From assembly GCA_017526725.1 (NCBI GenBank), contig JAFXRA010000153.1:1-9683 (forward strand): a DNA stretch of 9,683 nucleotides, in the 5' to 3' direction. Positions 6,045 through 9,683 of the stretch are shown piece by piece; the first letter of the stretch is position 1; every line of letters starts with the position of its first letter. The position numbers were made by a program, and so were the translations under genes. Below the pieces are notes generated by a model. That model did no database searches and was not told the origin of the DNA. It was given only the letters and a program-made list of their open reading frames with translations. Origin of the DNA: Candidatus Rifleibacteriota bacterium. GTDB taxonomy: Bacteria; Riflebacteria; Ozemobacteria; Ozemobacterales; Ozemobacteraceae.

Positions 6045-6069
6045 GGGGGTAGGGTGGAGGGAGGAGGGG
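6045..6069 (+). other. Potential G-quadruplex motif on plus strand
   Basis: Four runs of at least three Gs at 6045-6049, 6052-6054, 6059-6061 and 6066-6069 are separated by loops of 2, 4 and 4 bases (TA, TGGA, AGGA). This meets the canonical G3+N1-7 pattern. For the leftward serA transcript the plus strand is the template, so the mRNA here is C-rich. It lies about 60 bases before the serA start. Folding is untested. Confidence 0.6.
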
Positions 6070-6200
6070 ATTGTTTTAGCAAATCTTAGGTTTTATTGGT
6101 GTTGGGTGTGTTAGGTATTATTGTTTAATCGAAGATTGCAAAGTAAATATAATTTCAGATATTAGATATTTTGCAAAGCTATAACTTAACAATATAACCA

Positions 6201-6215
6201 AGAGGCTAAGCCTCT
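6201..6215. repeat. Perfect small hairpin AGAGGC-TAA-GCCTCT
   Basis: A 6-bp perfect stem with a 3-base loop. There is no T-run on either side, so it is not a simple terminator. The same GAGGC/GCCTC stem recurs at 7615-7628. It lies in the right arm of the long palindrome with no counterpart in the left arm, which fits an insertion. Confidence 0.65.
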
Positions 6216-6256
6216 AAACCATCACACCAATCTTATCTCTATTCTTTATTCCTAAT

Positions 6257-6280
6257 CCCTACACCCTTTACCCTTTTCCC
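6257..6280 (-). other. Potential G-quadruplex in mRNA just past the serC stop
   Basis: On the plus strand CCC occurs at 6257-6259, 6264-6266, 6271-6273 and 6278-6280, an exact 7-base period with 4-base loops. The minus strand and any serC transcript therefore read four GGG runs with loops AAAA, TAAA and TGTA, beginning 6 bases after the serC stop. A GGG array this regular is striking in such AT-rich DNA. It could fold in RNA and affect 3' stability or readthrough to serA, which is inference. Confidence 0.65.
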
Positions 6281-6286
6281 TACAAA

Positions 6287-7372
6287 TCAGGCATTTTCCT
6301 TATCGAATTTTCTGATGAAATCAGCAAGTTTCTGGCAGCCTTCGATTGGCATTGCATTATAGATAGAAGCTCTCATACCACCAATATTTCTGTGACCCTT
6401 AAGAGTTACAAGACCTTCAGCAGCTGCTTCAGCCAAGAATTTCTTGTTGATTTCTTCATTTGGTCCAAAGAATGGAATATTCATGATTGAACGATCTTCT
6501 GCATGTTCTGGAGTTATGTGTGCCTTGAGTAATTTAGAATTATCAATTGCATCATAAACAATTGCAGCTTTCTTCTTGTTCAATTCTTCGTAGTATGCTA
6601 CGCCACCCTTAGAAAGCATGTGTTCGAATACTAATTTTGCTATATAAATACCATATGTTGGCGGAGTGTTATACATTGAACCCTTGTCTGCATGAGTCTT
6701 ATAATCAAGCATGGTTGGAAGGTTCGGAATTCTGCCGATTAAATCATCACGAACAATAACAATTGTAACACCAGCAGGACCAATATTCTTCTGAGCGCCA
6801 GCATAAATCAAACCATAATCTGCTACGTTGAAACGTTCACTCATGATATTAGAAGACATATCAGCTACTAAAGGAATGCTGATCTGAGGAACCTTCATGC
6901 ACTTGGTTCCGTAAATAGTATTATTAGAAGTTACATGCAAATAATCTGCATCTTTTCTAACATCTTCTGCTTTATATTTTGGATAATATCTATTGTTGTC
7001 TTGAGTTGAAGAAGCGACTACATGGACGTCTACACCGTATTTCTTTGCTTCTTTAATAGCCTTGCTAGACCATTCTCCAGAATCAACAAAATCAGCTTTC
7101 TTTGTTACAGCTAAATTCATAGGAATCATTAGGAACTGGAGGTTAGCGCCACCCTGAAGGAAAAGAACTTTATAGTTAGATGGAATATCCATTAATTTGC
7201 GGATACCGGCTTCAGCGTCATCAATAATCTTTTGATAAGTAGAAGAGCGGTGGCTCATTTCCATAACGCTCATGCCTGAACCTTCGTAATCCATCATCTG
7301 ATCAGCAGCTTTTTTCAAAACTTCTTCTGGGAGAACGGCTGGACCGGCGGAAAAATTGTAAACTCTTGCCAT
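6287..7372 (-). CDS. serC: Phosphoserine aminotransferase
   Basis: This PLP enzyme transfers an amino group from glutamate to 3-phosphohydroxypyruvate, giving O-phosphoserine, the second step of serine synthesis. In some bacteria it also acts on the 4-phosphothreonine branch of vitamin B6 synthesis. It has 361 residues, normal for the family. It opens with YNFSAGPA, has MSHRS at 39-43 (substrate-contacting His41-Arg42), GGA at 74-76, Trp101 for ring stacking, Asp171 in VADMSS for the pyridine nitrogen, and the Schiff-base lysine Lys195 in YAGAQKNIGPAG. The C-terminal GHRNIGGMRASIYNAM block carries the conserved substrate arginines. The frame is intact. It is preceded by AAGGAG and a good sigma-70-like promoter, and followed 301 bases later by serA on the same strand. 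The enzymes act consecutively, but the large repeat-filled gap leaves open whether they are co-transcribed. Confidence 0.96.
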   Translation of the reverse strand: MARVYNFSAGPAVLPEEVLKKAADQMMDYEGSGMSVMEMSHRSSTYQKIIDDAEAGIRKLMDIPSNYKVLFLQGGANLQFLMIPMNLAVTKKADFVDSGEWSSKAIKEAKKYGVDVHVVASSTQDNNRYYPKYKAEDVRKDADYLHVTSNNTIYGTKCMKVPQISIPLVADMSSNIMSERFNVADYGLIYAGAQKNIGPAGVTIVIVRDDLIGRIPNLPTMLDYKTHADKGSMYNTPPTYGIYIAKLVFEHMLSKGGVAYYEELNKKKAAIVYDAIDNSKLLKAHITPEHAEDRSIMNIPFFGPNEEINKKFLAEAAAEGLVTLKGHRNIGGMRASIYNAMPIEGCQKLADFIRKFDKENA

Positions 7373-7384
7373 AATTAAAAATCA

Positions 7385-7390
7385 CTCCTT
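7385..7390 (-). promoter_or_regulatory. serC ribosome binding site
   Basis: The minus strand reads AAGGAG, a strong Shine-Dalgarno, with 12 bases to the ATG at 7372. The spacing is long, but no other in-frame start lies closer. Confidence 0.7.
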
Positions 7391-7391
7391 A

Positions 7392-7403
7392 AAATGATCA
7401 TTT
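7392..7403. promoter_or_regulatory. Perfect 12-bp palindrome AAATGATCATTT in serC leader
   Basis: It is a perfect dyad lying between the predicted serC promoter (start point near 7428) and the ribosome site at 7385-7390. That place suits a dimeric repressor operator or a short mRNA hairpin next to the ribosome site. In AT-rich DNA such a palindrome can also occur by chance. Confidence 0.35.
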
Positions 7404-7434
7404 GGGAAAAACACTTTATTTCTCAATATTTAAA

Positions 7435-7463
7435 CTAATAACATCAATAAAATTTTACGTCAA
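7435..7463 (-). promoter_or_regulatory. Predicted sigma-70-type promoter for serC
   Basis: On the minus strand TTGACG (7458-7463, 5 of 6 to consensus) is separated by exactly 17 bases from TATTAG (7435-7440, 4 of 6). Transcription would start near 7428 and give a leader of about 55 bases carrying the 7392-7403 palindrome. Confidence 0.6.
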
Positions 7464-7475
7464 GATATTATTTTT

Positions 7476-7593
7476 AGAGCAAAAGAGCGTAGAGCAAAGA
7501 GCGACAGAGCAACAGAGGAACAGAGCAACAGAGCGACAGAGCGACAGAGGAACAGAGCGACAGAGGAACAGAGCAACAGAGCGACAGAGCAAC
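7476..7593. repeat. Octamer tandem array AGAG-(CG/CA/GA)-AC
   Basis: From 7498 to 7593 there are twelve contiguous 8-base units without a slip. All are AGAG-NN-AC, and NN takes only three values, in order CG, CA, GA, CA, CG, CG, GA, CG, GA, CA, CG, CA. Three shorter or degenerate units (7476-7497: AGAGCAAA, AGAGCGT, AGAGCAA) precede them. There are no spacers, so it is not CRISPR. The array begins 12 bases beyond the serC -35 box. Reading frames through it are repeat translations without a credible ribosome site. Confidence 0.92.
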
Positions 7594-7607
7594 ATAGGAT
7601 GTGTAAA

Positions 7608-7702
7608 GTGAGACGAGGCCAAAGCCTCTGTGAGACGATTGCTACCGCAATCTGTGAGACGGCAGCTGACGCTGCCCGTGGTAGTTGTTCGACAATTCCC
7701 AC
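7608..7702. repeat. Hairpin module: GTGAGAC separators alternating with perfect stem-loops
   Basis: GTGAGAC occurs at 7608-7614, 7630-7636 and 7654-7660. Each copy is followed at once by a perfect inverted repeat with a 4-base loop. These are GAGGC/GCCTC loop CAAA (7615-7628), GATTGC/GCAATC loop TACC (7637-7652) and GGCAGC/GCTGCC loop TGAC (7661-7676). A fourth, imperfect hairpin follows: GTGG (7678-7681) with CCAC (7699-7702), enclosing TTGT-TCG-ACAA. Stems differ completely in sequence while separators are identical. No T-runs follow the stems. The stretch 7608-7747 is about 57% GC by my count (80 of 140), far above its surroundings. Confidence 0.88.
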
Positions 7703-7747
7703 AGTGTAACGTCCCACGACGAAGTGTCCCACAGCACAGCGTCACAC
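7696..7747. repeat. 15-bp periodic array of GTCCCAC-like heptamers
   Basis: Heptamers TTCCCAC (7696), GTCCCAC (7711), GTCCCAC (7726) and GTCACAC (7741) recur every 15 bases exactly, separated by the unlike octamers AGTGTAAC, GACGAAGT and AGCACAGC. GTCCCAC is the reverse complement of the upstream GTGAGAC except at one base, so the two arrays form an overall inverted arrangement centred near 7670-7678. CGTC-CCAC-GACG at 7710-7721 is a minor hairpin. Confidence 0.8.
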
Positions 7748-7754
7748 TATTAAC

Positions 7755-7790
7755 ACTTCTCACCCTTCCAACTCTTCTAACCCTTCTAAC
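7755..7790. repeat. Nonamer array of CCTTCTAAC type
   Basis: Four adjacent 9-base units read ACTTCTCAC, CCTTCCAAC, TCTTCTAAC and CCTTCTAAC. The array is pyrimidine-rich on the plus strand and ends 11 bases before the thrS -35 box. The first unit contains TCTCAC, echoing the reverse complement of GTGAGAC. Confidence 0.7.
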
Positions 7791-7801
7791 TTCATAAATA
7801 G

Positions 7802-7830
7802 TTGTTATCAAAATTGGTTAGTGGTATAAT
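7802..7830 (+). promoter_or_regulatory. Predicted sigma-70-type promoter for thrS
   Basis: TTGTTA (7802-7807, 4 of 6) and a perfect TATAAT (7825-7830) are separated by 17 bases. The start point would be near 7837, leaving a leader of about 25 bases, too short for a T-box or similar riboswitch. The repeat arrays lie upstream of this promoter, so they are not part of its transcript. Confidence 0.75.
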
Positions 7831-7849
7831 AGCCGCACAAAATATTTTT

Positions 7850-7855
7850 GAAGGG
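7850..7855 (+). promoter_or_regulatory. thrS ribosome binding site that fixes the start
   Basis: GAAGGG stands 6 bases before ATG 7862. The longer in-frame TTG start at 7802 lies inside the -35 box of the promoter and has no ribosome site, so it is rejected. Confidence 0.75.
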
Positions 7856-7861
7856 TTCAAC

Positions 7862-9676
7862 ATGGATAAAGAAAATAAAGAAGAATATAAAAAATTTTAT
7901 TCTGAAGTTTACCGCCATTCATTGGCTCATATTCTAGCAAAATCTGTTATGGAAATTTTCGGTAAAGAAAATGTCCAGATTGCTATAGGCCCTCAGATTG
8001 CTGATGGTTTCTATTACGATTTCATTCTTCCAAGAACAGTAACTAATGAAGATTTCAAGACAATCGAAGATAAGATGCACGAAATCATCAAGAGAAGAGA
8101 AGTTTGGAATGTAAAAGAACTTTCTCGTGAAGAAGCTTTAAAAGAATTTGCAGACCAGAAGTTCAAAGTAGAACTGATTAACGACCTTCCAGAAGACGAA
8201 AAGATAACTGTTTATTATACTGGCGACGATTTCAAAGACCTTTGCAGAGGTCCACATATTGCTAATTCTCAGGAATTAATGAACGCTGCTTTTAAGGTTA
8301 AATCAGTTTCTGGTGCTTACTGGCGTGGTGATGAACATAGAGACCAGCTTCAGAGAATCTATGTTTATGCTTTTGAAACCAAACAGGAACTCAGTGAACA
8401 TTTGAAGCTCATTAAAGAAGCTATGGAACGCGACCATAAGAAATTAGGTCCTCAGCTTGATTTGTTTATGTTTGATGAAACAGCTCCAGGTATGCCTTAC
8501 TGGTTGCCAAGAGGCTGGAGACTTTACAACGCTTTGTTGGATTATTGGCGTTCTGTCCATGATATTCACGGCTATCAGGAAATTTCAGCTCCTGTTATCA
8601 ACAATAAACAGCTTTGGGTAACTTCAGGTCACTGGGGTCACTATCGCAATAATATGTTCCTGGTTCCTGGTTTTGAACTCGATGATAACGGAAAGCGCAT
8701 TTATGACGATGAAAGCAATTCAACATATGCTGCAAAACCAATGAACTGCCCGAATGCTATAAATGTTTATAGAAGAAAACTTAATTCTTACAAAGAACTT
8801 CCAATACGCATCAGCCAGGTTGACGTTATTCATAGAAAAGAAAAGTCTGGTGAATTAAATGGTTTATTCCGCGTTCAGGAATTCAGACAGGACGATGCTC
8901 ATATATTTGTAACAGAAGATCAGATTGCTTCTGAAATCAAAGATATTATGGAAATCGCTACTGAAATATATAATACTTTCGGTTTAACTTACCGTGTTGA
9001 ACTTTCAACTAGACCAGATGATTATATGGGTGATATCGAAGTTTGGAACAATGCTGAAAAAGCATTGAAAGACATTCTTGATAAAACTTATGGCGAAGGC
9101 AAATACGAAATCAATGAAGGCGACGGCGCTTTCTACGGTCCAAAGATTGACCTTCAGATGAAAGACTGCTTAGGTCGTGAATGGCAGATGGGCACAATTC
9201 AGTTAGACTTCCAGCTTCCATTGAACTTTGATTTGAAGTATGTTGCTGATGATGGTAGCTACAAGCGCCCAGTTATGATTCACCGTGCTATATTCGGTTC
9301 GTTGGAAAGATTCATCGGTATTCTTATAGAAAATTTCAAGGGTCAGTTCCCATTCTGGCTGTCTCCGTTCCAGGTAGGAATCGTTCCTATAATGCCAGAA
9401 CATAATGAATATGCTAAGGAAGTTTTAGAAACTTTGAGAGCTGCTGGTATCAGAGCTGAAGCAGATTTCTCTGACCACAATATGAAGGCTAAGATTAAAG
9501 ATTTCCACAATAATAGAGACCCATTTATTGTTGTATTAGGTAATAAGGAAGCAGAAACCAAGACCGTAGCTATTACCGCTCGCGGAAACAAGAAGCTTAA
9601 TGATGTTCCATTAGATAAATTTGTTAAGATGTGTCAGAATCTCAATAAAGAACATAGCTTGGAACTGCTGAAGTAA
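7862..9676 (+). CDS. thrS: Threonyl-tRNA synthetase lacking TGS domain
   Basis: This class II synthetase charges tRNA-Thr with threonine using ATP. The protein is 604 residues from ATG 7862. The editing (N2) domain begins almost at once: HSLAH (His19, His23) and Cys128-Arg-Gly-Pro-His132 form the HxxxH...CxxxH editing site that clears Ser-tRNA-Thr. The catalytic domain (about 200-495) has the zinc ligands Cys296 (PMNCP), His347 (DDAHIF) and His474 (MIHRAIFGSLERF); the Cys-to-His spacing of 51 matches E. coli ThrRS. Motif 2 is FRVQEFRQDDAH, and motif 3 lies in the His474 segment. The anticodon-binding domain is about 500-604. Only 18 residues precede the first editing His, against about 72 in E. 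coli, so the N-terminal TGS (N1) domain is absent. As I recall this is normal for Treponema and Borrelia. The frame is complete to a TAA at 9674-9676; no terminator is visible in the last 7 bases. Confidence 0.97.
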   Translation: MDKENKEEYKKFYSEVYRHSLAHILAKSVMEIFGKENVQIAIGPQIADGFYYDFILPRTVTNEDFKTIEDKMHEIIKRREVWNVKELSREEALKEFADQKFKVELINDLPEDEKITVYYTGDDFKDLCRGPHIANSQELMNAAFKVKSVSGAYWRGDEHRDQLQRIYVYAFETKQELSEHLKLIKEAMERDHKKLGPQLDLFMFDETAPGMPYWLPRGWRLYNALLDYWRSVHDIHGYQEISAPVINNKQLWVTSGHWGHYRNNMFLVPGFELDDNGKRIYDDESNSTYAAKPMNCPNAINVYRRKLNSYKELPIRISQVDVIHRKEKSGELNGLFRVQEFRQDDAHIFVTEDQIASEIKDIMEIATEIYNTFGLTYRVELSTRPDDYMGDIEVWNNAEKALKDILDKTYGEGKYEINEGDGAFYGPKIDLQMKDCLGREWQMGTIQLDFQLPLNFDLKYVADDGSYKRPVMIHRAIFGSLERFIGILIENFKGQFPFWLSPFQVGIVPIMPEHNEYAKEVLETLRAAGIRAEADFSDHNMKAKIKDFHNNRDPFIVVLGNKEAETKTVAITARGNKKLNDVPLDKFVKMCQNLNKEHSLELLK

Positions 9677-9683
9677 GCTATAT

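Follow-up and report, generated by a model that had tools for sequence, protein, structure and literature searches.

The locus between serC and thrS raises the question of why three hairpins whose stems share no sequence should all be perfectly paired and all follow the same heptamer. The window, i.e. the whole stretch of 9,683 nucleotides that was analysed, comes from a contig of a Candidatus Rifleibacteriota bacterium. It carries serC on the minus strand (6287-7372) and thrS on the plus strand (7862-9676), both named from reading of their translations, and the tagged hairpins lie between these divergent genes. The original prediction described three units of GTGAGAC plus hairpin at 7608..7676, with perfect stems (5, 6 and 6 bp) and tetraloops, and this description is exact. 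The three hairpins are only half of the element, however, which continues to 7747, and what had been taken for a local oddity is one copy of a dispersed family.

Layout, orthologue and dispersal

The whole element (7608..7747) is supported by its orthologue at locus L001 and by covariance model R1. In its 140 bases, inward-facing tagged hairpins flank a central hairpin: three GTGRGAC-plus-hairpin units on the left, and on the right three mini-hairpins with the complement of the tag. The left units (22-24 bp) lie on the plus strand and are recognised from the sequence and the other copies. Tag 1 (7608..7614), which is GTGAGAC in the window and GTGNNAC in most other copies, precedes the slot 1 hairpin GAGGC/caaa/GCCTC (7615..7628, 5 bp). 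Tag 2, again GTGAGAC (7630..7636), precedes the slot 2 hairpin GATTGC/tacc/GCAATC (7637..7652, 6 bp), and tag 3, of the same sequence (7654..7660), the slot 3 hairpin GGCAGC/tgac/GCTGCC (7661..7676, 6 bp). On the other strand the loops of slots 2 and 3 read GGTA and GTCA, both of the GNNA type. The central hairpin GTGGTAGTTGT/tcg/ACAATTCCCAC (7678..7702) has one T.C mismatch in the window copy.

The right arm is read on the minus strand. It consists of the slot 3' mini-hairpin GT/gta/AC (7704..7710), in whose place some other copies have longer unrelated hairpins, tag 3' (GTGGGAC, 7711..7717), the slot 2' mini-hairpin AC/gaa/GT (7719..7725), tag 2' (GTGGGAC, 7726..7732), the slot 1' mini-hairpin GC/aca/GC (7734..7740; GC/gca/GC in the RUG334 orthologue) and tag 1' (GTGTGAC, 7741..7747). 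Each strand, followed from its end, thus runs three times through tag and hairpin toward the centre. With the tag placed 3', the repeat unit reads as a hairpin, whose loop is mostly GNA or GNNA, and then GTCYCAC; on the other strand it reads GTGRGAC and then the hairpin, and three units oppose three across the central hairpin. All five GTGRGAC sites of the window lie inside the element, compared with 0.78 expected, and five were reached in 0 of 200 shuffles.

A search with the ThrS protein led to three loci with 95-96% identity: L001, from the uncultured bacterium RUG334 (genome G001), and L002 and L003, from Candidatus Riflebacteria, whose genomes are listed as members in a family search around G001. 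The nearest relative of the window is the MAG RUG334, a rumen bacterium grouped with Riflebacteria, and among the three loci only L001 has the serC-thrS region in common with the window. There the two sequences are 94.6% identical over 6068-7519 and 89.5% over 7752-9680. The orthologous element (L001 1460-1599) is a 140-base block with 4 differences from the window, none of them in the three left hairpins or their tags and one in a right-hand tag. Drift or unpaired stems in related strains had been named as evidence against selection. In this one strain (L001/L134) the same three stems are present and fully paired and the 4 differences in 140 bases lie elsewhere, but this says little about selection because the non-repeat intergenic sequence around the element is well conserved too.

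The arrays that border the element, 8-base on the left and 9-base on the right, vary in length between the window and L001. The 8-base tandem array (7476-7594; AGAGCAAC and variants, about 15 units) is a variable-number repeat adjoining the element, since it is much shorter at the L001 locus. The 9-base array (7751-7790; TTCCAACCC-like) is far longer in L001, at about 1600-1710; 9-mers resembling TTCCAACCC adjoin many element copies and lie in the central loop of several. At 6201-6215 the window has a single perfect hairpin, AGAGGCTAAGCCTCT, near the slot 1 hairpin in sequence and without a tag, which is kept in L001.

A search of related genomes for spaced tag pairs set RUG334 apart. The pattern GTGRGACN{8,20}GTGRGAC, which does not require pairing, had 162 matches in G001 and 0 in the reversed control. 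In each of 38 other Riflebacteria genomes the same-spaced pattern had at most 4 matches; as the reversed control gives larger counts there, most of these are at chance level. Among 48 genomes reached through more distant ThrS relatives, for which 48 of the 77 loci L004-L080 served, it had at most 7 matches, and the 7 are a plain tandem repeat. Covariance model R1, built from seven copies, gave at least 57 matches in G001 at E<=1e-4, with at most 135 of 507 candidates scored, and 0 in 23 other family genomes among the candidates scored (at most 135 per genome). With as many as 3 mismatches allowed, the right-arm core had 86 occurrences in G001, 3 in G002, 1 in G018 and none in 36 others; its reversed control gave 0 in all 39 genomes. 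The G002 and G018 copies that were examined are partial. Viral contigs, searched with two exact patterns, and phage and plasmid records, searched with the window copy, had no match.

After removal of 4 duplicates and 12 opposite-strand matches, the 78 model matches left a list of 62 copies, i.e. 61 from G001 and the window, in which the window copy and its RUG334 orthologue are both counted. The usual order in these copies is tag, slot 1, tag, slot 2, tag, slot 3, central hairpin, and then slot 3', tag', slot 2', tag', slot 1', tag'. The stems had been called diversified, and this needs qualification: slots 3 and 3' hold most of the diversity, but each slot has its own recurrent stem. Slot 1 is mostly GAGGC/GCCTC, slot 2 is GATTGC/GCAATC or has GTTGC/GCAAC forms, and slot 3 is mostly GGCAGC/GCTGCC or GGCAAC/GTTGCC. 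Slot 3' could be parsed in 27 of the 62 copies and is GTGAAAC or a one-base variant of it in 17 of the 27; others have longer unrelated hairpins there (e.g. GGCTG/CAGCC, AGCAGC/GCTGCT, GGCAAC/GTTGTC), and the unrelated hairpins of this slot measure 7 to 16 nt. Units are also gained and lost: L190:3262-3431 has four left units, slot 2 is missing in L123, and some copies are without much of the right arm.

Pairing of the stems across copies

The stretches of RUG334, which were selected for containing tag pairs or model matches, hold 59 distinct inserts (123 occurrences) between adjacent tags. An insert was taken as fully paired if 2 or more Watson-Crick pairs ran inward from its ends and its loop was no longer than 5. 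This applied to 45 of the 59 distinct inserts (109 occurrences), whereas 2000 letter shuffles gave 3.6 on average and 10 at most; the remaining 14 (14 occurrences) were incompletely paired.

Slots 2 and 3 were counted over 16-base hairpins only, with two units set aside, including an imperfect one of the slot 2 type. These stem counts, like the loop counts below, are counts of copies and not of independent events, because the copies are related by descent. Slot 2 (46 copies of 16 nt, 10 stems) has all six pairs in 28 copies (2 stems) and lacks at least one pair in 18 of the 46 copies and 8 of the 10 stems; its second commonest form has five pairs with T.T at the foot (GTTGC/GTTGC-type, 10 copies). 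In slot 3 (51 copies of 16 nt, 20 stems) all six pairs are present in 39 copies (10 stems, G.T counted) and at least one is missing in 12 of 51 copies and 10 of 20 stems. Jointly, 67 of 97 copies have all six pairs, and the statement that the stems are always paired was too strong for either slot. The stems of the mini-hairpins are paired in 107 of 113 cases.

Covariance analysis of the aligned copies, likewise suggested beforehand, speaks for maintenance of the pairing with some exceptions. Slots 2 and 3 together show 40 paired double changes, where independent change of the two arms would give about 0.1, and slot 3 alone has seven distinct types of such change. Another 25 changes affect one side only, and in 11 double changes, all of them in slot 2, the two new bases do not pair. 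In a sequence-driven alignment of 19 near-full-length copies, changes on both sides are seen in 19 cells, compared with a shuffle mean of 10.9, a value reached by 1 of 500 shuffles, but the number of pairs with two-sided changes (7 compared with 6.0 in shuffles) is unremarkable and the number of pair types (20) is below that of the shuffles (22.6). Slid controls in this alignment gave at most 2 pairs with two-sided changes.

The paired double changes and the swaps of unrelated hairpins at one slot across copies support the conclusion that pairing in the stems is under selection or actively maintained. The alternative offered originally, selection for structure or a copying mechanism, is thus upheld as far as maintenance goes, but the two causes, selection on the one hand and copying or correction on the other, are indistinguishable here.

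A purely mutational origin would be intrastrand template switching (quasipalindrome correction), in which one arm is rewritten from the other and pairing arises without function. The many alternative paired stems, including the swaps to unrelated hairpins, agree with this, and template switching at quasipalindromes is documented in E. coli (PMC7202029). It leaves the dispersal, the fixed slot order, the conserved tags and the conserved loop ends unexplained, however, and A.C-mismatched intermediates persist in slot 3 (GGCAAC/GCTGCC, 3 of 51). We regard it as an unlikely explanation.

Single folds also suggested a ladder of four-way junctions in which left tags pair with right tags. Covariation does not support it: 16 of 19 copies have a mismatch at the left-right tag pair 50:109, and 11 of 19 and 8 of 19 at the variable outer pairs, and the left-right tag pairs show either a steady A.C mismatch or independent variation.

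Loop type, folding and gene context

On the strand on which the tag is 3', 98 of 113 mini-hairpins have a GNA loop; a GNNA loop is present in 34 of the 46 copies of slot 2 and in 40 of the 51 of slot 3. GNRA loops are limited to 10 of the 46 slot 2 copies and to none of the 51 in slot 3. Slot 1 is off this pattern, with GNNA in 1 of 48. According to PMC4686876, a DNA mini-hairpin is extraordinarily stable if its loop is GNA or GNNA and it has two or more G-C pairs; GCGAAGC melts at 78 C. Slot 1' is GCGAAGC itself in 9 of 27 parsed copies. The published stem of two G-C pairs is found in 55 of the 113 mini-units (GC/GC); AC/GT stems with a single G-C pair, below that condition, make up 48 of 113. 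Most loops outside slot 1 fit very stable DNA mini-hairpins of the GNA/GNNA type and not RNA GNRA loops.

A different reading is that the element is transcribed, as 3' UTR hairpins, an mRNA stabiliser or a small RNA, and that it is the RNA fold which is selected. Stem covariation would be expected in that case, and for the window copy the RNA fold of either strand has a stability that none of 200 shuffles attains (z -4.0 and -3.8). However, the DNA fold of the same copy also beats all shuffles (z -3.4), so that fold energy does not decide between DNA and RNA. The loops are GNNA and not GNRA, and the Rfam scan of the window gave 0 matches at the gathering score, with a chance-level match only at a relaxed threshold. 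Nor do the neighbouring genes impose an orientation: the window copy itself lies between divergent genes, and by crude ORF calls, with a few gaps in overlapping stretches counted twice, the 41 gaps with an element are 22 tandem, 10 convergent and 9 divergent, compared with 19/7/7 for gaps without it. As these counts are similar, there is no gene-orientation rule. The overlap-free count is 26 tandem, 11 convergent and 10 divergent (47 of the 62 copies, those for which both neighbouring genes were called), and 54 of the 62 elements overlap no crude ORF of at least 100 codons. Selection on an RNA fold is therefore given little credence here, and DNA-type folding remains the preferred reading.

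The statement that the locus is not a CRISPR array, an integron site or a terminator is borne out for all three as far as sequence and gene context go. No T run directly follows any hairpin in 7608-7747, and 9 of the 41 element-bearing gaps lie between divergent genes, which argues against an intrinsic terminator. The inserts recur genome-wide and are not unique, and the repeat is 7 bases and not long, unlike in a CRISPR array. The R box motif of integron attC sites is GTTRRRY, and position 3 of GTGRGAC is G instead of T.

Known repeat families and possible mobility

The stems vary between scattered copies yet are mostly paired, and the element therefore looks like a new relative of the bacterial hairpin repeats. 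We consider it probable that it represents a family of dispersed, non-autonomous DNA repeats that is specific to this lineage and has the build of a compound REP, BIME or REPIN. With these families, as described by Nunvar 2010 (PMC2817692), Bertels and Rainey 2011 (PMC3116915) and Di Nocera 2013 (PMC3733652), it has in common that its palindromes are short, intergenic and present in high copy, carry a conserved tag on the 5' side, form inverted dimers, are specific to a species and show compensatory changes in their stems. Such changes are reported for REPINs in PMC3116915, and preserved palindromy for REPs in PMC2817692; copying from folded single strands has been proposed for both. By size the element also agrees with a REP/BIME (a palindromic unit of 20-40 bp, high copy, intergenic), and the P. 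putida REP starts with TGTGGGAG ahead of the palindrome, to which TGTGGGAC of the element is close (PMC2817692).

The differences are considerable. Most REPs sort into GTAG and CGTC tags (PMC3733652), and neither fits the tag GTGRGAC (loosely GTGNNAC), so that the relation is one of analogy only. The element has three tandem tagged hairpins per strand where a REP has one, and 2-bp GNA mini-hairpins on one arm. Neither a GTAG tag nor a RAYT flanked by the same repeats was found, the latter in G001, a fragmented MAG. Compared with REPINs, inverted arms and covarying hairpins are present, but arm-to-arm tag pairing is unsupported. REPs lie mostly between unidirectional or convergent genes (same source), whereas the element is not depleted between divergent ones. 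The CGTC-tagged REPs are likewise tagged palindromes, often dimers, in genomes without a tied transposase gene; their stems are 8-9 bp, with first pairs almost always AT and mostly a CCA tail (PMC3733652), whereas those of the element are 2-6 bp, differ in sequence and go with a different tag. The element is not proven to be a REP, because its tag is not GTAG and the only Y1 gene found in G001 is of IS200 type beside unrelated hairpins.

Small dispersed repeats (SDR), ERIC and NEMIS, compared by description only, presumably resemble the element in further respects as well. The likeness on record is that they are short interspersed palindromic repeats (PMC3116915). In the literature covered, with subscription journals thinly represented, no description of Riflebacteria repeats, of such arrays or of the GTGAGAC tag was found. 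The family thus adds a REP-like element, with a tag and build for which that literature holds no description, from the uncultured phylum Candidatus Riflebacteria. Its dozens of natural copies differ in stem sequence but largely retain their pairing and loop type, and they allow one to ask if it is the folding of single-stranded DNA, and not that of RNA or a bias of mutation, which maintains pairing in the palindromic repeats of bacteria.

How such a family could spread can be outlined. Each strand would fold as single-stranded DNA, on the lagging strand or in a cruciform. A single-strand transposase or recombinase that reads hairpins and acts in trans would then copy the folded strand, and by this, copies that fold would spread. 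Recombination between the near-identical 7-base tags may add, lose or swap hairpins. Flanking direct repeats of at least 4 bases were absent from all 33 intact-ended copies. Single-strand transposition of the IS200/IS605 type leaves no target duplication. Direct repeats of 3 bases flank 2 of the 33 copies, compared with 0.6 expected, so that there may be a very short target duplication.

Another reading is movement as a miniature inverted-repeat element by a classical DDE transposase acting on GTGNNAC...GTNNCAC ends. The ends do form short inverted repeats, and a length of about 140 bp is common among the copies. Against this stand the missing target duplication of at least 4 bases, the variable positions of the two ends, which mismatch each other, and the internal hairpins, which need not stay paired for such a transposase. 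We hold this very improbable, and copying of a folded single strand is preferred.

The only Y1_Tnp gene found in the fragmented G001 is of IS200 type by NCBIfam (locus L102). This locus (3342 bases) has a lone GTGRGAC at 2990, more than 1 kb past the gene end at 1944, and no second tag. At L102 1330-2190 the IS200-type gene lies amid hairpins like CCTAGGGCG...CGCCCTAGG (CCTAGGG-type), perhaps a repeat family of its own. Among 24 family genomes, 12 have Y1 loci (13 loci); four of these loci have one lone tag-like site each, and none of the 13 has a tagged-hairpin array. The genes between neighbouring copies in L133 and L190 look ordinary and not transposase-like by reading of their translations, and neither an autonomous partner nor pairs of empty and occupied sites were seen in the genomes compared. 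RAYTs are said always to be flanked by two inverted REPs (PMC2817692). As the only Y1 found in G001 is of IS200 type amid different hairpins, the mobiliser may be absent from the fragmented MAG, act in trans or be of another kind.

More tentatively, the element could be a cassette-like structure of single-stranded DNA, an idea that we put forward as possible but rather doubtful. The near-identical 7-base tags would serve as joints between exchangeable hairpins, and the slots would accept DNA-type hairpins with GN(N)A loops. Copying would be due either to a hairpin-reading enzyme other than a RAYT or to a mode of replication by which perfect hairpins arise de novo.

Two other repeats were noticed around copies of the element. 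A second short repeat, with ends CGGACAG...CTGTCCG in L084, lies in or beside central hairpins in L084, L187 and L211 and also occurs in G018. Another repeated palindromic block, roughly GTCTACACATTTGTCATAAA...TTTATGACAATGGGTAGAC, lies near copies in L088, L094, L096, L110 and L112 and is present in G002 as well.
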